Shown: piece by piece, positions 2,985-16,831 of the stretch
Layout: every line of letters begins with the position of its first letter
Position numbering within the stretch: the stretch's first letter is position 1
Source: a virus
IMG/VR virus record: IMGVR_UViG_3300025598_000104
Location: 1 to 33,594 of that record
DNA: 33,594 nt
Reading direction: 5' to 3' (one strand)
The notes under the pieces: generated by a model
Database searches by the model: none
What the model was told of the DNA's origin: nothing
Seen by the model: the letters and a program-made list of their open reading frames with translations, nothing else
Translations under genes and position numbers: made by a program

Positions 2985-3070
2985 TGGTGCAAGTACCCGG
3001 AATCGAACCGGGACGAGTCAAACTCGGCAGATTTTAAGTCTGCTGCGGCTACCGATTACGCCATACTTGC
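2985..3070 (-). tRNA. tRNA-Leu (TAA), class II
   Basis: Acceptor GCAAGTA/TACTTGC, anticodon stem GCAGA/TCTGC with loop CTTAAAA giving TAA, long variable arm (CGAG...CTCG), T-arm CCCGG/CCGGG, discriminator A, CCA encoded. The 5' 15 nt overlap the end of the radical SAM gene. Confidence 0.92.
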
Positions 3071-4126
3071 GAAGCCTATAAAAAATACATCGTTGTATTT
3101 TTCTTTGAGTCGATTAAAAGTATCAATTGTTGATTGGTACTGTTGGTGTGCGTTATCAAGCACATCGTGTGCTAAAAATTCTTGCTCGGTGAAAGTTCCC
3201 CAATTGGCCAACTTACAGTATTCAACTCGATCAGCGTCGTGTTGTTTGCAATAATCATAAAATTGTTCGATCTCGTTGCAATTTGTTTGTTGCGTTACTG
3301 ATCTAATATAATACTGAAACCCTAGCTCGCGTTTTTTCTTTGAAAAAAACTCTAAGCTACTTTCCATATCTTCAAATTTACCACCTCGTCTCAATAGTTC
3401 ATAGCTTTGTTTGGTACAACTATCTATGGTAACTGTGATACGATGTATATTCTTTTCTAAATGTTGGATCCTAGACCATCTACGTTCGGCCAATAACCCG
3501 TTTGTTTGTAGACTTAATCTAATGTTAGGGTATCGATCAATGGGCAATTTTTCCAACAAACCCAGTAACAGTGAACTAGCAAATACTTCAGCAGTTGCGC
3601 TCATGTACAAGGTAATTTCTTTATCGCTGGAGCCAGGAAAAATATGTTGAACTAAATTATCTAATAGCTCTTGATTTTGTCGTTGTTGTGCTTCTGTTTC
3701 TCGAATTATGCTTTTTCTACAAGATGGACAAGAAAGGTTACAGGTCATGTCACCACTTATCCATATCTCAGATGGTATTGTAAAATTTGCAGGATCAAGT
3801 AAATTTTTTAATAATTGATCTTCTTGCGTTACTGTAATTAATCCTGTGTCTGAATTAAGCAATACTCCGCATCTGGTTTCGTCACAGTATCTAAAATTAC
3901 CATCAACAATAGATTGTCTTATTGTTGTGGATCTTGCATTAACTAAAATATCTTGTAAGGAATTTTCATAAATGTTGCCAACTGTGGATAGCATCCAATC
4001 AGTACACATACATATACGAACATCACCTTCAATTGATATTGCTACAGTATTAAAAGGGATCGTGCAAATTTTGCCCGATAAATCTTTGTCACCATAAATC
4101 TTTAATGGCCAAACTATTCTTTTCAT
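3056..4126 (-). CDS. Radical SAM protein with N-terminal cysteine cluster
   Basis: A 356-aa protein. The radical SAM motif CNLSCPSC is at residues 129-136 (Cys129, 133, 136 would bind the 4Fe-4S cluster that splits S-adenosylmethionine). Ahead of it, cysteines 21, 39, 41, 81 and 86 (CTIPFNTVAIS, RICMC) resemble a SPASM/twitch-type auxiliary cluster site, here N-terminal to the core. SATAEVFAS at about 173 occupies the place of the usual GGEP-type motif. The substrate is unknown; SPASM enzymes often modify peptides, but phage members are uncharacterised. It is inserted among tRNAs, and its stop lies inside tRNA-Leu(TAA). A late-like box (ATTAAATA) is 4 nt before the ATG and no Shine-Dalgarno is seen. 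Confidence 0.82.
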   Translation of the reverse strand: MKRIVWPLKIYGDKDLSGKICTIPFNTVAISIEGDVRICMCTDWMLSTVGNIYENSLQDILVNARSTTIRQSIVDGNFRYCDETRCGVLLNSDTGLITVTQEDQLLKNLLDPANFTIPSEIWISGDMTCNLSCPSCRKSIIRETEAQQRQNQELLDNLVQHIFPGSSDKEITLYMSATAEVFASSLLLGLLEKLPIDRYPNIRLSLQTNGLLAERRWSRIQHLEKNIHRITVTIDSCTKQSYELLRRGGKFEDMESSLEFFSKKKRELGFQYYIRSVTQQTNCNEIEQFYDYCKQHDADRVEYCKLANWGTFTEQEFLAHDVLDNAHQQYQSTIDTFNRLKEKYNDVFFIGFASMA

Positions 4127-7788: not shown

Positions 7789-7817
7789 GCTCTTTGGATA
7801 AATTGTTGTATTTTTAC

Positions 7818-7825
7818 AATAAATA
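7818..7825 (+). promoter_or_regulatory. Late promoter box AATAAATA (+ strand)
   Basis: Late box 16 nt upstream of the propeller gene ATG at 7842, with AAGGA between them. Confidence 0.65.
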
Positions 7826-7841
7826 CTCAAAAGGACTCAAA

Positions 7842-8747
7842 ATGACCTGGACCACAGGAACAATAAACACCCCCGACGCTTGGTCAGGAATCGCATACGG
7901 TGCCGGTATATTTGCCACTGTTGCCAATATAAGCTCTAACTCTTCGTACAGTACCGACGGAATAACTTGGACTCCGGGAGTTACACAACCTTCTAGCCCC
8001 AGTAGATACTTAACCAGTATAATGCCGGTCAATGCGTATTGGCAAAATATCACATACGGTAATGGCAAATTTGTTGCTGTTGCTACAGGTGCGTATTCGG
8101 CTATCAGCATTGACGGGGCCAATTGGACTTTTGTTAACTTACCAAAATCAAAAAATTGGCAGAGTGTTGCTTACGGTTCTGATTACTTTGTTGCAGTAGG
8201 GTCGGGATTTACTACAAAATTTGGTTACCCTTACGGAAATCAAACTGTGGGAGTTACCCCAGATCCACATGATTGGGCCAATAGCTTGATGGACATAAGT
8301 TTGCCTTGGACCGAGGTTGCATATGGTCTTGGTCAATTTGTTGCTATAACTTCAAATAGTAACAGTAGTTCTAGTAGTACCACTGGAGCAAGTTGGGTTA
8401 CCAGTAATGCCATGCCTGTGGCACAAAATTGGACTGGATTGGCATTTGGCAATAATCGATTTGTTGCAGTTGCTGCCAATAGCAATGTTGCTGCATACAG
8501 TCTAAATGGACATACTTGGACTGCTTCTACGTTGCCCGGTGCACAACAATGGACCAGTATTGCTTACGGGAATGGTACTTTTATATCGGTTGCACATAAC
8601 AGCAATGTGGCAGCAGTCAGTAGTGATGGCATAACTTGGCACACCGAAGCGATGCCGGCTACACAACCTTGGACTGCCATCACATTTGGACAGGATAGGT
8701 TTGTAGCCGTTGCTTGCAATACTCGAGTAACTGCGGTTAGAGTTTAA
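7842..8747 (+). CDS. Seven-bladed beta-propeller protein (possible adhesin or tail-fibre moron)
   Basis: A 301-aa protein of seven repeats of roughly 40 residues. Each carries a W-x3-(A/T)-(Y/F)-G-x2-x-F-(V/I)-(A/S)-V core, for example WQNITYGNGKFVAV and WTSIAYGNGTFISV, and most end in a S-x-DG-x-TW strand. Seven repeats fit a closed seven-bladed propeller, the fold of many carbohydrate-binding lectins and fibre tips. There is no signal peptide. The start at 7842 is set by AAGGA 7 nt upstream and by the first repeat beginning soon after. It is on the opposite strand to nearly all genes around it and has its own late box, so it behaves as an independent late cargo gene. Receptor binding is an inference from the fold. 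Confidence 0.75.
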   Translation: MTWTTGTINTPDAWSGIAYGAGIFATVANISSNSSYSTDGITWTPGVTQPSSPSRYLTSIMPVNAYWQNITYGNGKFVAVATGAYSAISIDGANWTFVNLPKSKNWQSVAYGSDYFVAVGSGFTTKFGYPYGNQTVGVTPDPHDWANSLMDISLPWTEVAYGLGQFVAITSNSNSSSSSTTGASWVTSNAMPVAQNWTGLAFGNNRFVAVAANSNVAAYSLNGHTWTASTLPGAQQWTSIAYGNGTFISVAHNSNVAAVSSDGITWHTEAMPATQPWTAITFGQDRFVAVACNTRVTAVRV

Positions 8748-9250
8748 CTGTTCAACACCTTTGCGGCACTGTTGATAACTGAGGCAATACGTCCGATGTC
8801 GCGTAGTTGCTCTACAGTATAGCCTTCTTTTTTCAGTGTTTCATAATGTGCCTTGACACAGAAGTGACACTTGCCCACAATACTTGCAGCCAAACTAAAT
8901 GCTTCAAAATTGCTTTTGGTTGTTCCGCCATGTGAGGCAATAGCGTTCATGCGTAAGCCTGCAGGTAGTCCGGCAAGTGCAGGATCATCGGCCATTTCAA
9001 CGTAGGGATACCATACATTGTTTTGGGCCATGATTGACGCTGCAGTCATTGCTGCATCTGCATAAACAGGAGCATCTGCTAGTAGTACGCTTAAAAGTTT
9101 ACCATTGCCAGTTGCAGCCAAGGCAGCCACTGCACATCCTATAGCCACATCTGCATCTAAGGTACTACGTAGTAATACCGCATCCATGTTTAACTTGGTG
9201 TCTTTTGCATAGTCCGGTAAAGCACCTTTTACTGATTCTATAAAATTCAT
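8744..9250 (-). CDS. ahpD: AhpD-type alkylhydroperoxidase (CMD family)
   Basis: A 168-aa protein of the AhpD/carboxymuconolactone decarboxylase family, close to the usual length. The catalytic motif is CHFCVKAH, residues 128-135: Cys128 and Cys131 form the redox pair, and His135 and Glu116 lie at the same spacing as Glu118, Cys130, Cys133 and His137 of mycobacterial AhpD. In bacteria AhpD reduces AhpC, itself being reduced through lipoylated dihydrolipoamide succinyltransferase. Here it is the third gene of an operon headed by an AhpC-type peroxiredoxin. Its start overlaps the SGNH stop by 4 nt (translational coupling), and its stop overlaps the convergent propeller gene by 3 nt. Confidence 0.88.
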   Translation of the reverse strand: MNFIESVKGALPDYAKDTKLNMDAVLLRSTLDADVAIGCAVAALAATGNGKLLSVLLADAPVYADAAMTAASIMAQNNVWYPYVEMADDPALAGLPAGLRMNAIASHGGTTKSNFEAFSLAASIVGKCHFCVKAHYETLKKEGYTVEQLRDIGRIASVINSAAKVLNS

Positions 9251-9648
9251 TTTGTTTTCTCCTCTATTTGTTTATATCCTGCCCAACTTGGATGAATCTT
9301 GTCTGCTTGCCAACGTGTTGTAGGTATAACTACATCACCAAACTGTTCAGCAACTGATCTCACATTCTCGACTGCTCGGGGTTTGCTTTCGGGATTGGGC
9401 TCAATCCAAAATACTCGCTTGCCCCGGACTTTGTTACGAATTTCAATCAGTTTTGCGTGAGTGTCTGCTTGTTCCCAATCATTGGTACTTAAACTGATAA
9501 TAACGGTTTCAGCAGACAAGTCATTCATGCCAAATCGCTTGTCCCAACCATGACTAGTAATACCGCCTTTGGCATAGTCCCTACATTCAGGTCTGAACAT
9601 TTTTGTGCCAACTGCGATACTGTCGCCAATGATCAAGCAATCAATCAT
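9247..9648 (-). CDS. Small SGNH/GDSL-type hydrolase
   Basis: A 133-aa alpha/beta hydrolase-like protein with all SGNH blocks: block I IIGDSIAVG (Ser10), block II Gly in AKGGITSH, block III Asn in LSTNDW, and block V DKIHPSWAGY with the catalytic Asp and His. It lacks a signal peptide, so it probably acts inside the cell. It is shorter than typical SGNH esterases, consistent with a minimal core. It lies between ahpC and ahpD, overlapping both by 4 nt. The substrate is unknown: an ester or acyl group, possibly on a lipid or glycan. Confidence 0.8.
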   Translation of the reverse strand: MIDCLIIGDSIAVGTKMFRPECRDYAKGGITSHGWDKRFGMNDLSAETVIISLSTNDWEQADTHAKLIEIRNKVRGKRVFWIEPNPESKPRAVENVRSVAEQFGDVVIPTTRWQADKIHPSWAGYKQIEEKTK

Positions 9649-10187
9649 CCCAGTGTTGCTCCGCCAACTGTGCGGTTACATGCACACAATTCACCAGTTT
9701 GCAATGCATCAAGGATACGCAATGTTTCTTCTGGGCTACGACCCACGTCCAAGTTGTTGACAGTAACGTGTTGGATTGTGTTGTCGGGATCAACAATGAA
9801 TGTGGCACGTAGTGCAGCACCGGCTGGAGCATAGAATACACCCAGTTGTTCAGCAAGACTTAATTCACCACGTTGTGTATCAGCGAACTGATTGTGTGTG
9901 ATCTTGATCAAGTCTTCGTGTGATTTTTGCCATGCCAGTTTGCAGAACTCATTATCAGTACTACCTGTTAGCAATACTGCATCACGATCCGCAAAGTCTT
10001 GATTTAGTTTGTCGTATGCTACGATTTCTGTTGGACATACAAATGTAAAGTCCTTGGGATAGAATACAATTACTTTCCATTTGCCCGCAAAACTAGTTTC
10101 GTCAATTGTGAAGAAAGCATCTTCTGGTTGTCCGGGCTTGACGCCGGTTACTGCGAAGTGAGTTAATTTATCGCCGATTGTTTTCAT
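9645..10187 (-). CDS. ahpC: 2-Cys peroxiredoxin, AhpC type
   Basis: A 180-aa typical 2-Cys peroxiredoxin that reduces hydrogen peroxide and organic peroxides. The active site PxxxTxxC is at residues 44-51 (PKDFTFVC), with peroxidatic Cys51 and a conserved Arg in LRATF. The C-terminus ELCACNRTVGG has two cysteines (168 and 170), the CxC pattern of mycobacterial AhpC that partners with AhpD, unlike the single resolving Cys of the AhpF-dependent type. This matches the AhpD gene in the same operon. A sigma70 promoter (10244-10272) and an AAAGGAG site precede it. I infer protection of phage replication from peroxide. Confidence 0.92.
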   Translation of the reverse strand: MKTIGDKLTHFAVTGVKPGQPEDAFFTIDETSFAGKWKVIVFYPKDFTFVCPTEIVAYDKLNQDFADRDAVLLTGSTDNEFCKLAWQKSHEDLIKITHNQFADTQRGELSLAEQLGVFYAPAGAALRATFIVDPDNTIQHVTVNNLDVGRSPEETLRILDALQTGELCACNRTVGGATLG

Positions 10188-10243
10188 AATTTTCTCCTTT
10201 AATGTTAAATTGAAAACTTATTAGTGTTTCTACTAATGTTGTT

Positions 10244-10272
10244 ATTGTAATAGTATTTAACAATTAAGTCAA
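10244..10272 (-). promoter_or_regulatory. sigma70-type promoter of the ahpC operon
   Basis: Minus strand: TTGACT, 17 nt, TACAAT, about 57 nt before the ahpC ATG. The spacer contains GTTAAATA, one base from a late box. Confidence 0.75.
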
Positions 10273-10328
10273 TGAAAATAATAGGTTTTTATCAAATATT
10301 TTTTAATTGCGTTTATAGGAAAAATTAA

Positions 10329-11891
10329 TTAACGGCGTTCTCGTCCTATGCCACCGCTGGCGGCTTTTTTTCCGGGACGTGCAATAACGTCTGCACCAAT
10401 TGAGTGTTGTTGGCCTATTGTGCTGATCTTTTTGTTGATTGCAACTGTGTCCACTGCCGGAGCTTCGTCTTCTTTACCTTTCTTGGTGGGCTTGGCACCG
10501 CCCTTCAAGATTTCAAATGTAAAGTTGCCTTTGCCCTGTGTGCTCATATATGCCTTGCTGGCATCAAGCAAAACACCAGTAACAGTGTCACTGGGATATA
10601 CTGCATTGAAACTTTCAATTACAATGTTGTTGCCCATTTCTTTTGCAGTGGTATACATTTGCACTAGAGCACTACGGTTTAAAATTTTACTGGCTGCTAG
10701 GCCAAATCGTGTGTTGGTGTTGACATAGTCGGCCACTCGATACGCAATGGCTGCTAACAAATGCTCTAGTGGAATAATCTTGCTCATGTCCTTGGCTTTA
10801 CGATCAGTATAGAACTTTTCTAGACGCTTGGTCAATACTCCTGATCCAATAATATCATCTGTGGGTGCAAACTGTTTCAGGCCTTTAACTTGCTTGGCTT
10901 CTACTGCGTTGATTATATCGTATTTGACTGCAAGATCCAGCGGTGCATCGGTATGGCCACGTTCAAAGATGGTTTTTAAAATTTCAATTTCTTCTTTGAA
11001 ATCATTTACTAGTTTTTTACCATCAGGAGCAACTTCTAATTCTCTAACACTGGTCAATAGATTGCTGACACTGGCATTAGCACCTGACTTGCCTTTACTG
11101 CTTAATTTAATACGTCCGCCATCGGGACTGGTCAGCAAACTGTCATACAATCCGCCGCTGACTCCTTGGTGAAATTTGATTTTACAATTTCGATAATCGG
11201 CACCTTTGCCAAAGAATATGTCGGCAGCTTTGCCGGCATCGCCTTCTACATTCATGCCTTTGACTAGTGCAATGGGTTGTAGCATTTCACAGAAGTAATC
11301 TCTAAATGCTTCGAGATTCATGTTGCCTTTGGGCACTGTTACCGGGAACGATCTTGATGCTAGAAATATTCTTGCGGCATTTGCTTCGTCACTGTCTTGC
11401 CCAAAGTGATCGGTAATTTGTCTAACAATGTCCACTGGGCTTAAATCTTCAAACGTGGTCAATATTTCACTGGCCTTGTAACCGGCACTTTCTTTTTTGC
11501 CCAGGCCGCTTTGTAATCTGAATCCGCCCGGAATGTCGTCGGTGGCAAAACTGTTGTCGGTTTTATTGGGACTGATTTGTTTAAAATATTTGCCTAAATA
11601 ATATTGTCCGCCCTGTATATCAAATGTGGCTATGCCAAATCCCAGAGTACCAGCGTTGCGCCGGTTGACCCAGTGTATATTCAAGCCCAAGGCCTGTATG
11701 GCTTGATCCATCTCTTCGGGAGTGGCAAATTGTCCTCGTGCGGGATAAAATTCAATTGATTGAAATGTGATAACATCGCCATTGGCGTTGGCGTATTGCT
11801 CGCCGGGTTTTCTAGCGGCTAGTCCACGTCCTTCAGTGATAGGGGCAGATAAATTTTCAATTAGATCTATTAGTTTGCGTAAATCGGTCAT
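10329..11891 (-). CDS. Putative internal virion protein with capsid-targeting-like leader
   Basis: A 520-aa protein starting at the ATG at 11891. An AATAAATA late box lies 7 nt upstream, and a longer frame reaching 11969 overlaps the methyltransferase and lacks signals. The first 20 residues end in PITE followed by GRG, fitting the (L/I)xE cleavage rule of T4 prohead protease, so it may be a packaged head protein. A middle segment (DGGRIKLSSKGKSGANAS, about residue 250) is lysine/serine-rich and resembles restriction-nuclease-like cores, but I cannot confirm catalytic residues. The C-terminal tail is basic (GRERR). Specific function unknown. Confidence 0.6.
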   Translation of the reverse strand: MTDLRKLIDLIENLSAPITEGRGLAARKPGEQYANANGDVITFQSIEFYPARGQFATPEEMDQAIQALGLNIHWVNRRNAGTLGFGIATFDIQGGQYYLGKYFKQISPNKTDNSFATDDIPGGFRLQSGLGKKESAGYKASEILTTFEDLSPVDIVRQITDHFGQDSDEANAARIFLASRSFPVTVPKGNMNLEAFRDYFCEMLQPIALVKGMNVEGDAGKAADIFFGKGADYRNCKIKFHQGVSGGLYDSLLTSPDGGRIKLSSKGKSGANASVSNLLTSVRELEVAPDGKKLVNDFKEEIEILKTIFERGHTDAPLDLAVKYDIINAVEAKQVKGLKQFAPTDDIIGSGVLTKRLEKFYTDRKAKDMSKIIPLEHLLAAIAYRVADYVNTNTRFGLAASKILNRSALVQMYTTAKEMGNNIVIESFNAVYPSDTVTGVLLDASKAYMSTQGKGNFTFEILKGGAKPTKKGKEDEAPAVDTVAINKKISTIGQQHSIGADVIARPGKKAASGGIGRERR

Positions 11892-12895: not shown

Positions 12896-13347
12896 TAGAC
12901 TACCACGTCCTCCATTCCGGCAGTTCGCAAACGAACCACGTGTCCCAGCATGAAGTTTTTGCTCTCTATGCCTTTCATTACCCCTAGCCATTTGTTACGT
13001 AACAATGCTACTTCATTGATAATGGTTTCCATATCAATAACTTCGTCCTCGCCTTCGGCATACTTTTCTGCGTCACGACTTGTTAGTGCTCGTGCATAGG
13101 CTTCTAAATATTTTTTGTAGTGTGTTTGTTTGATCTTGCGTAATTGAATATTGAGATAATTCAATACTGCTTCAATTTCTTGTAGCTGATTAAATCGGTG
13201 TTCGGTGACTCCCGGCAGATTACTTAGTGCTCGTTCTACATTACCCGATATTTTAATTTCAGATTTGGCACTGATTAATTCGTGCTCGTAGTAATCAATA
13301 AATGCCGGGATTTCGCCCAAGTTGCTGACTATTTTATTATACCACAT
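12895..13347 (-). CDS. uvsY: UvsY-like recombination mediator
   Basis: A 150-aa highly helical protein similar in length to T4 UvsY (137 aa). The C-terminal part (GIESKNFMLGHVVRLRTAG) aligns by eye with the end of T4 UvsY (AIKSRGFAIKHIQDMRAFEAG), and the upstream helical region carries many charged residues, as expected. UvsY loads UvsX onto ssDNA coated with gp32; both partners are encoded nearby. It overlaps the radical SAM gene by 11 nt and is coupled to the 88-aa gene by TAATG. Confidence 0.8.
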   Translation of the reverse strand: MWYNKIVSNLGEIPAFIDYYEHELISAKSEIKISGNVERALSNLPGVTEHRFNQLQEIEAVLNYLNIQLRKIKQTHYKKYLEAYARALTSRDAEKYAEGEDEVIDMETIINEVALLRNKWLGVMKGIESKNFMLGHVVRLRTAGMEDVVV

Positions 13348-14569
13348 TTTCGTACTCGGTTAACCATGGAAAGGTTGTGCGCCAATTGGTTTGGCGTCGG
13401 CGATCTTTTTCGTTTAAGAATGTAAACAATTTATTAATTTCAACGGCGTTGATGTTGTTTGATTTAATTTCGTTTGCTATACCGGACATGGCATGAACTG
13501 CTCGTTGTTCGTCGGCGGTGTTGCTTGGCATTAATTTTAATATATTTTCGAAATCGTTGTCAAATACTCCGGGGCCAAATATATTTGGTCTCATGTAACT
13601 GGGACCAGGTTGTACGACACTGAAAAAATGTCCCACTGGCCTTTTACAGTTCCATTCATTTAATTTTACAATTAACTCTGGCATGGTTTTAATTGTTAGT
13701 ACCGATATTGCTTGATTGATATTTAATTTAATCCATTTTTGATCCAATAGATATGTAAAATTTTCTAACCAAGTGTTTAAGTCTAATCCGTAACGCACAT
13801 ATTCTTGTTCCGGGCCCCAACAGTCAATACTGACAGTTAAATCAAATCTTTTAATTTTTCTTTTAATAATTAATTGTTTAATTTCATCAATTTTTTTAAC
13901 CAGTGTATCATGGGAAATCATGAGGTTTGTTACAAGGTTAAGTTCGAGATTGGGATTGGCATTGTCTTGAATAAAATCAATCAATGTGTTTAATTGTTTT
14001 TGATAAAAAGGTTCGCCACCTAAAAAATGAAATCTTTGAAGTTTAGAAAAATTATCTTTCATCCACTGCCAAAATTTTGGCTCTAGTTCTCCAATATGCT
14101 TTTTGCTCAAGGGCGATAAAATTATTCCGTTTTTGTTAAAAACACCAAATTTATTATTTTCTTGATCTATACTAGAACTTAGTTCTGGCTTGCAGTACAA
14201 ACAAGATAAGTTGCAGGTGTTATTAAAATATACTTCTAATATCGCAGGATCTACTGTAGTAGAGTCCAGTGAACTGGGGTGCAGTCCCGGAATAGAATTA
14301 TGCAACATCCTGTCACTGAAACCGCCAGAATTTTCTATACCTTGACAGTACTCGCAACCGCCCGCAGGCCATTTTCCGTCAAACATCAACTCACGTGCTT
14401 GTAATTTTGTTTCCGTATTATGAAAATTATGGAAATTATCTGTATCAATATCGCTTTTGGAAGCTCGATGACAGGATGCAGTTGTTCCAGAATTTAAGTA
14501 AATAGTACTCCAACTCCATTTTAATTTACAAGCAGTTTCTGTTTGAATCGGAAAATAATTGGGTAGCAT
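13337..14569 (-). CDS. Radical SAM protein, twitch/SPASM-like
   Basis: A 410-aa radical SAM enzyme. The cluster-binding motif is CNLSCLYC, residues 119-126 (Cys119, 123, 126), followed by FLGGEPF, the GGE motif that helps bind SAM. Upstream cysteines 14, 33, 72 and 75 (GCEYC) form a likely auxiliary-cluster region, again N-terminal to the core as in the other radical SAM protein at 3056-4126. It lies inside the recombination operon, coupled to its neighbours by TAATG upstream and an 11-nt overlap downstream. Its substrate is unknown; no precursor-peptide gene is evident beside it, though the 74-aa acidic protein upstream is a candidate partner. Confidence 0.85.
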   Translation of the reverse strand: MLPNYFPIQTETACKLKWSWSTIYLNSGTTASCHRASKSDIDTDNFHNFHNTETKLQARELMFDGKWPAGGCEYCQGIENSGGFSDRMLHNSIPGLHPSSLDSTTVDPAILEVYFNNTCNLSCLYCKPELSSSIDQENNKFGVFNKNGIILSPLSKKHIGELEPKFWQWMKDNFSKLQRFHFLGGEPFYQKQLNTLIDFIQDNANPNLELNLVTNLMISHDTLVKKIDEIKQLIIKRKIKRFDLTVSIDCWGPEQEYVRYGLDLNTWLENFTYLLDQKWIKLNINQAISVLTIKTMPELIVKLNEWNCKRPVGHFFSVVQPGPSYMRPNIFGPGVFDNDFENILKLMPSNTADEQRAVHAMSGIANEIKSNNINAVEINKLFTFLNEKDRRRQTNWRTTFPWLTEYENVV

Positions 14570-15868: not shown

Positions 15869-16831
15869 TTATTTTTCCTTAATAAAATTGTATATTTGTT
15901 CCGAGTACCATTTTTGTGTAATAGGTCCCGGATGTAATCCATCTGTTCCAATATCAAAATACTTGTTTAGACATTCACTTATTGGAAAGTCTTTGGTTAG
16001 ATCCAAGAACGATTCGTTGTCCTTGAGCACCGTCGACATCCAAGTTATATCATATAAATTTACTAGATATAGTTTAGCGTTTATTTTACTACAAAAGTTC
16101 ATAACTTGTAAAACTTTACGGACAGATTGAGTTATCATTGTGGTACTGTCAAAGTATTCCAAAGGCCAATATCTAAGTTCTTTTGGTATTTGATTGTAAC
16201 GTGCCGCCGGCATCGAGTATAGATCCCAATCTAGTGCATATTCAAATCGTTGTATGTTGGTTAGTCCCCAAACCACAATGTCGTTGGCCCTGACATCTGA
16301 TCTTAACAACTGATCGGCAGCCCAGGCTTGACTGGCTCCGTTACGTGACAGTGTAATCTCGGGACGATTTAGTTGTTTGCCCAACAAATATCCATAACGT
16401 TGTTCATTGGTGACACCTTCGCCGGCAGTAAACGAACATCCAATGGTCCACAATACTGGATCATCAGTTGCTCTAACGCTATCTAGGTTATCAAACTTAT
16501 CTAGATTAAAACCGTCAATGAAATCAAAATTTTGTACTTTGTGTCGTACCTTGATCAATTCGTAAAATAATCGACCATAACTGTATTGGTCGTTATTTTT
16601 ATAGTCTTGTTGCACCACTGTGTTCAAATCAATGTCTACTAGATGTATTTTGTTAGCGGATTGGCAAACTTTTTGTAAATTTTGAGTTGTTATGTCATCA
16701 ATGGTGGTATGGTAGTCTACTAGATTTCGTAATATTAATGCTTGATTCAAATTTCCTTTATCCAACAATTTGATGCTGGCGTCTTTCCAATGATAGTCAA
16801 CTGTTGTTATGTAAAGATTGTTAATAGACAT
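15869..16831 (-). CDS. SGNH/GDSL-like hydrolase
   Basis: A 320-aa protein whose C-terminal two thirds carry SGNH features: block I TIGCSFTAGEG (catalytic Ser, about residue 133), a later Asn-containing strand (VVWGLTNIQRFE), and the terminal DGLHPGP motif with Asp and His. The first 110 residues are not recognised. Related phage proteins are annotated as GDSL-type hydrolases; substrates could be acyl groups on glycans. It is coupled by TAATG to the glycosyltransferase-like gene, which supports joint work on a sugar-containing target. Confidence 0.75.
   Translation of the reverse strand: MSINNLYITTVDYHWKDASIKLLDKGNLNQALILRNLVDYHTTIDDITTQNLQKVCQSANKIHLVDIDLNTVVQQDYKNNDQYSYGRLFYELIKVRHKVQNFDFIDGFNLDKFDNLDSVRATDDPVLWTIGCSFTAGEGVTNEQRYGYLLGKQLNRPEITLSRNGASQAWAADQLLRSDVRANDIVVWGLTNIQRFEYALDWDLYSMPAARYNQIPKELRYWPLEYFDSTTMITQSVRKVLQVMNFCSKINAKLYLVNLYDITWMSTVLKDNESFLDLTKDFPISECLNKYFDIGTDGLHPGPITQKWYSEQIYNFIKEK

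Follow-up and report, generated by a model that had tools for sequence, protein, structure and literature searches.

In B. thailandensis, AhpC carries Cys57 together with Cys171/Cys173, AhpD binds AhpC and its CxxC motif is required, and SucB and Lpd pass electrons from NADH to AhpD-AhpC (PMC6626918). AhpD is a better donor than TrxC in this system, about 5-fold more efficient with cumene hydroperoxide, and OxyR binds the ahpC promoter (PMC6626918). Thioredoxin C, too, is an efficient reductant of mycobacterial AhpC (PMC5505994), and a CxC motif combined with AhpD is therefore no proof of exclusive AhpD dependence. Among viruses, ahpC has been reported as a metabolic gene of Microcystis viruses (PMC12542629), likewise a phage peroxidase gene, with AhpD unmentioned in the passage on this gene. 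Phage ahpC by itself has thus already been noted; a search of open-licence papers returned no description of a phage AhpC-AhpD pair, which is apparently unreported in that literature.

Such a pair is encoded on a 33.6-kb T4-like virus record, of which the whole stretch of 33,594 nt (the window) was analyzed; the contig also bears a T4-type terminase, a RecA-like protein, a gp32-like single-strand binding protein and 25 tRNA genes. The features of the locus are summarized in Table 1. The phage pair resembles the Burkholderiales operon, including the AhpC-AhpD-SucB-Lpd system of B. thailandensis (PMC6626918), in gene order, in the CxC-type AhpC and in the C-H-F-C motif of AhpD. It differs in that the phage copies form separate branches, and in a 5' hairpin that is present in phage leaders and rare in bacterial ahpC leaders. 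M. tuberculosis provides the top solved-structure relatives of both proteins, with a CxC-type AhpC and an identical Glu/Cys/Cys/His spacing in AhpD, at an AhpD identity of only ~36%.

Table 1. Features of the ahpC-ahpD locus (window coordinates)
Feature	Coordinates	Strand	Remarks
ahpC, 180 aa	10187-9645	minus	CxC-type 2-Cys peroxiredoxin
SGNH/GDSL-type hydrolase, small, 133 aa	9648-9247	minus	S10, N56, D116, H119; variable passenger
ahpD, 168 aa	9250-8744	minus	redox AhpD; E116, C128-H-F-C131, H135
Sigma70-like promoter of ahpC, TTGACT-N17-TACAAT	10272-10244; TTGACT 10272-10267, TACAAT 10249-10244	minus	consensus match
5' leader hairpin ATTAGT-AGAAAC-ACTAAT	10237-10220	minus	first base at predicted +1
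OxyR/LysR-type-like box, candidate	10293..10329	minus	9/16 consensus letters
Shine-Dalgarno AAGGAG of ahpC	10194..10199	minus	read off sequence

The AhpC and AhpD proteins

On re-reading, the sequence features named in the original prediction were all confirmed, i.e. PKDFTFVC and the C-terminal CxC of AhpC, the E116/C128/C131/H135 set of AhpD, the sigma70-type promoter, and the 4-nt overlap (ATGA) at both the ahpC/SGNH and the SGNH/ahpD junction. The predicted peroxidatic cysteine of AhpC, C51, lies within PKDFTFVC (DFTFVCPTE, in keeping with the F[TV]CP motif of AhpD-dependent AhpC) and the resolving cysteines in C168-A-C170. All three are invariant in 36 phage relatives, the CxC motif was found in 49/49 phage AhpC sequences counted, and the longer string GELCACNR in 44 of the 49. 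AhpC matches the Pfam AhpC-TSA family with 80.7 bits; the closest NCBIfam model is TIGR03137, with a score under its equivalog/subfamily cut-off. By sequence, the solved structure closest to the phage AhpC is M. tuberculosis AhpC (2bmx), and a second AhpC entry (7bz6) is likewise among the best solved relatives. Judged by its sequence, the protein is an AhpC of the CxC type.

The pattern E-N11-C-x-x-C-x-x-x-H, spaced as E118/C130/C133/H137 of M. tuberculosis, is present in all 50 phage AhpD sequences, and the catalytic residues are invariant in 36 sequences down to an AhpD identity of 51%. AhpD matches Pfam CMD with 36.9 bits and passes the cut-off of the domain model TIGR00778. Against the ahpD model TIGR00777 it scores 115 bits, short of the subfamily cut-off of 192 bits, and its membership therefore rests on fold and residues. 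M. tuberculosis AhpD entries are the only solved relatives by sequence. An AlphaFold2 model of the phage protein (pLDDT 87.8) has M. tuberculosis AhpD as all of its best 12 PDB matches (TM 0.80-0.89); beyond these, matches have E > 0.03, and other structures of the CMD family are far behind. The proton-relay His132 of M. tuberculosis is replaced by Phe130 in the phage protein and by Phe or Tyr in Burkholderiales AhpD. Conservation of His132 is described as less than absolute (PMC3141380), and this residue was not counted as defining for a redox AhpD. Based on its residues, its nearest solved structures by sequence and its predicted fold, the protein is a true redox AhpD. A place among the non-redox CMD proteins, which would have undone the proposed pair, is ruled out by the matches of the fold to M. 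tuberculosis AhpD and by the E/CxxC/H residues.

Conservation and phylogeny of the pair

Scans of IMG/VR returned at least 600 matches each for AhpC and AhpD. Where at least 3 kb of room was available, AhpC was found upstream of AhpD on the same strand in 66/67 AhpD loci, and AhpD downstream of AhpC in 110/110 AhpC loci; both figures refer to the best-scoring matches, with some contigs repeated, and hold for close relatives. The fixed order expected of a matched pair is thus observed, and ahpC-ahpD is a conserved phage module. Comparison of the window with its relatives gave dN/dS values of 0.03-0.06 for AhpC and of 0.03-0.10 for AhpD where unsaturated, most comparisons lying at 0.03-0.06, and the pair is under strong purifying selection. 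Taken together, residues, nearest structures and co-conservation bear out the claim that the phage carries a matched AhpC and AhpD. In the GenBank phage set, AhpC relatives were found only at up to ~36% identity over most of the length, and an AhpD query against 50,697 GenBank phage records gave no match.

Among bacteria, the closest relatives are mainly Burkholderiales, where ahpC and ahpD occur in identical order with a gap of typically ~50-130 nt, in contrast to the phage genes, which often abut each other or have cargo between them. Identities to Burkholderiales are 61-70% for AhpC and 49-57% for AhpD in most of the tabled loci. Quick, unrooted trees built from 50 phage and 22 bacterial rows place the phage rows together behind a single branch, with SH-aLRT values of 100 for AhpC and 96 for AhpD. 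A bacterial counterpart of the operon thus exists, as would be expected if the pair were a recent bacterial contamination or a functionless passenger. This explanation is nevertheless barely conceivable: the genes are found on hundreds of viral contigs, the contig itself bears the terminase, gp32-like, RecA-like and tRNA genes mentioned above, and the phage-only clades and the strong purifying selection rule contamination out.

Two IMG/VR contigs (L155 and L160) encode a typical phage AhpC (85-87% identical) beside a distant AhpD (51-55%), which suggests that ahpC and ahpD can move independently of each other. There is no support for the pair being core to the lineage defined by gp32, as none of 18 contigs related by gp32 (33-261 kb, each possibly a fragment) had an AhpD match.

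The strong selection and the shared occurrence on hundreds of viral contigs show that the peroxidase and its dedicated reductant stay together. Reports of metabolic genes in phages mostly concern single enzymes dependent on host partners. Since the pair is kept together under strong selection, the idea that peroxide limits the infection of freshwater bacteria by phages becomes testable.

The gene between ahpC and ahpD

The SGNH protein scores 30 bits against Pfam Lipase_GDSL_2, below the cut-off of 32.9. This weak score is offset by S10, N56, D116 and H119, which are invariant in 27 relatives, and by a structural model (pLDDT 96.9) whose PDB matches are OatA-C and GDSL acylhydrolases. The original prediction had treated the three genes as one operon in which SGNH might act on a peroxidised or esterified lipid, or which might be a new defence or cargo system that includes the pair. 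The 4-nt overlaps in the window and the intact catalytic residues are in line with such an operon; the relatives are not. The order ahpC-SGNH-ahpD was recovered in only 13/104 distinct loci, 47 have no room for any gene between ahpC and ahpD, and when SGNH was used as query, the 17 strong loci were mostly without AhpC or AhpD nearby. The other inserts at the junction include class II aldolase (29 ORFs), an unknown 211-aa protein (10), BI-1-like (5), DUF2061 (5) and PsiE-like (4) proteins, and TerC, cytochrome c and alternative oxidase once each, and these families are functionally unrelated to one another. Because SGNH is missing from most pairs and occurs elsewhere without AhpC and AhpD, it is cargo, one of many interchangeable passengers outside the peroxidase pathway. 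Synteny thus rules it out as a pathway partner, and with SGNH absent from most relatives there is no support for the three genes as a defence system; a joint function of the three, with SGNH de-esterifying peroxidised lipids or otherwise, is already largely refuted and in our judgement highly improbable.

The alternative oxidase that occupies this junction in a single viral contig is a full one (L080:2893-3444; Pfam AOX, 238 bits), and relatives of it are encoded in 393 stretches of IMG/VR viral contigs (including loci L408-L487). A literature search for phages with alternative oxidase among their metabolic genes returned nothing evidently on that subject. In the window, a 320-aa protein (15869-16831, minus strand) with SGNH-like stretches, GCSFTAGEG near the middle and DGLHPG near the end, has no Pfam match and is possibly a second, larger SGNH protein.

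Promoter and leader of ahpC

A TTGAYY/TACAAT-like arrangement is repeated upstream of ahpC in the relatives. The hairpin in the window, which the original prediction does not mention, has a perfect 6-bp stem and begins at the predicted transcription start. In order to count such hairpins, a non-redundant set of 69 phage ahpC promoters with scores of 9/12 or higher was searched for stems of at least 5 Watson-Crick base pairs at most 32 nt past the -10 element. A hairpin was found in 62 of them. Shuffling with dinucleotides preserved gives an expectation of 13.3, and four windows placed upstream in these sequences gave 10-24 of 69. The hairpin starts mostly 4-9 nt past the -10, the start site being a predicted one. 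By a similar count, hairpins occur in 71/85 phage ahpC promoters, 29/120 other phage promoters and 3/39 bacterial ahpC leaders. The stems comprise 35 different strings. In a sequence-only alignment, 74.4% of the pairing cells are paired, compared with 63.0 +/- 1.8 after shuffling and 26-42% when slid, and the covariation score is 0.273 compared with 0.178 for shuffled alignments, a value reached by 0/500 shuffles.

A role at the RNA level is favoured over a fixed DNA operator, because the stems vary while pairing and position persist. Hairpins at the 5' end of an mRNA are known to protect the transcript (reviewed in PMC3997798), for which reason stabilization of the mRNA is the likeliest function of the leader hairpin. 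Like the bacterial 5'-terminal stabilizing stem-loops (PMC3997798), it lies at the extreme 5' end; it differs from them in that an Rfam search assigned it to no family at gathering score and in that its stabilizing effect is putative. A covarying hairpin at the predicted first base of phage ahpC mRNA is new in this analysis, as is the weaker OxyR-like box described below, and the hairpin offers a ready handle on expression control in uncultured phages. The TCAGT/TTAGT sequence of the hairpin was rejected as a genome-wide phage promoter signature, with 7 other plus-strand sites in 1.29 Mb, which is about chance. The gp32-like gene of the window has the same promoter hexamers as ahpC (TTGACT-N17-TACAAT, 18854-18826, minus strand), and there the -10 itself opens an inverted repeat, TACAAT...ATTGTA.

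Upstream of this promoter, a four-part AT-rich box was scored against the OxyR consensus ATAG-N7-CTAT-N7-ATAG-N7-CTAT (16 letters). In 74 phage relatives the best fit lies exactly 80 nt before the -10, with a mean of 8.26/16 compared with 4.81 +/- 0.82 over 150 offsets, and 26/74 reach at least 11. Bacterial ahpC promoters have OxyR-like sites scoring at least 12 in 24/58 cases, compared with 0.4% in shuffled sequences. The phage leaders compared are related to each other, the window copy is weak, and half-site covariation in the box is mixed, unlike that expected of a clean palindrome; for these reasons the box is kept as a candidate, and the position-specific signal for OxyR control of phage ahpC is suggestive.

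Electron donor and host

Twelve long phage contigs, all with AhpC and nearly all with AhpD seen too, were searched for proteins that might recharge the pair. No lipoyl domain or protein and no thioredoxin was found in them, nor any Pyr_redox_2 match above cut-off, and a phage-encoded lipoyl protein, thioredoxin or pyridine-nucleotide disulfide reductase was accordingly dismissed as the electron source for these contigs. Glutaredoxin is encoded in 11 of the 12. The host is therefore the most likely source of the lipoamide reductant, and the chief rival is glutaredoxin. AhpC might then be the working part, recharged by phage glutaredoxin or host thioredoxin, and AhpD a slow peroxidase or an accessory. 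The frequent position of glutaredoxin upstream together with nrdAB, and the reduction of mycobacterial AhpC by thioredoxin C (PMC5505994), are consistent with this; AhpD, however, is retained as tightly as AhpC with all its redox residues, and the ~5-fold advantage of AhpD over TrxC with cumene hydroperoxide in B. thailandensis (PMC6626918) points the same way. Recharging of AhpC by glutaredoxin or thioredoxin is thus quite unlikely.

Upstream of ahpC, nrdB and glutaredoxin were identified in ~24/111 distinct loci and nrdA in 13; the nrd genes lie ~2-8 kb away in IMG/VR loci, e.g. L153:610-1987 and L398:22-909. Based on this arrangement, the pair could mainly shield the oxygen-dependent NrdB during DNA synthesis and belong to a nucleotide module and not to a general stress defence. 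We consider this doubtful, since nrd genes were unseen in the flanks of most loci (many of them short), none was recognised in the window, and ahpC has a promoter of its own.

An AhpD match is present in 32/300 Burkholderiales genomes (~10%) and a close AhpC in 31/300, and the two tables combined give 26 genomes with strong matches to both. AhpD being rare in the genomes sampled, a phage bringing AhpC alone would often lack the reductant; the phage thus probably brings its own AhpD. A TctC-type receptor (PF03401) occurs in some ahpC neighbourhoods, and this cargo together with the phylogeny weakly suggests a Burkholderiales host. As we read the record set, the source samples are mostly fresh water.

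Proposed peroxidase relay

The phage thus probably carries a self-contained AhpC/AhpD peroxidase that is recharged by the host and protects the infected cell, its activity, donor, host and benefit being predicted from the genes and their neighbours. The pair would derive from, or share common ancestry with, the Burkholderiales ahpC-ahpD operon. By analogy with B. thailandensis, from which we carry the mechanism over as an inference, C51 of AhpC would be oxidised by hydrogen peroxide, organic hydroperoxides or peroxynitrite, and the disulfide would then move to C168/C170, to be reduced by C128/C131 of AhpD. AhpD in turn would be recharged by the lipoylated E2 of a host 2-oxoacid dehydrogenase (SucB) and lipoamide dehydrogenase at the expense of NADH. 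The sigma70-type promoter is predicted to drive the pair, from a transcript that would begin with the hairpin, most likely mRNA-stabilizing. The relay may protect the infected cell and, probably, the synthesis of phage DNA against peroxide from sunlit fresh water and from respiration, and its own ahpD would free the phage peroxidase from the need for a host AhpD, absent from most of the Burkholderiales sampled.

A bolder extension, which we regard as possible but tentative, is that large freshwater phages run a complete relay into the lipoamide/NADH pool of the host, controlled by an OxyR-type box and a lineage-specific hairpin promoter, with the junction as a slot for redox genes. If so, peroxide in the cell would itself turn on the protection of the phage, and the ahpC-ahpD junction would be an exchange slot for respiratory and redox genes such as alternative oxidase and cytochrome c.

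Other genes in the window

A 317-aa plus-strand protein (7794-8747) is convergent with ahpD, 4 nt being common to both ends; it has repeated units resembling W-x-x-I/L-A/T-Y/F-G-x-x-x-F-V-A-V-A and has no Pfam or PHROG match. Two further minus-strand genes, at 3056-4126 and 13337-14569, encode a radical-SAM/SPASM protein and a further protein that contains CNLSCLYC, a CxxxCxxC motif, but has no Pfam match. The 25 tRNA genes are located between 153 and 6468 on the minus strand, with small ORFs between them that include an HNH-type and a NUMOD3/endonuclease-I-like protein.
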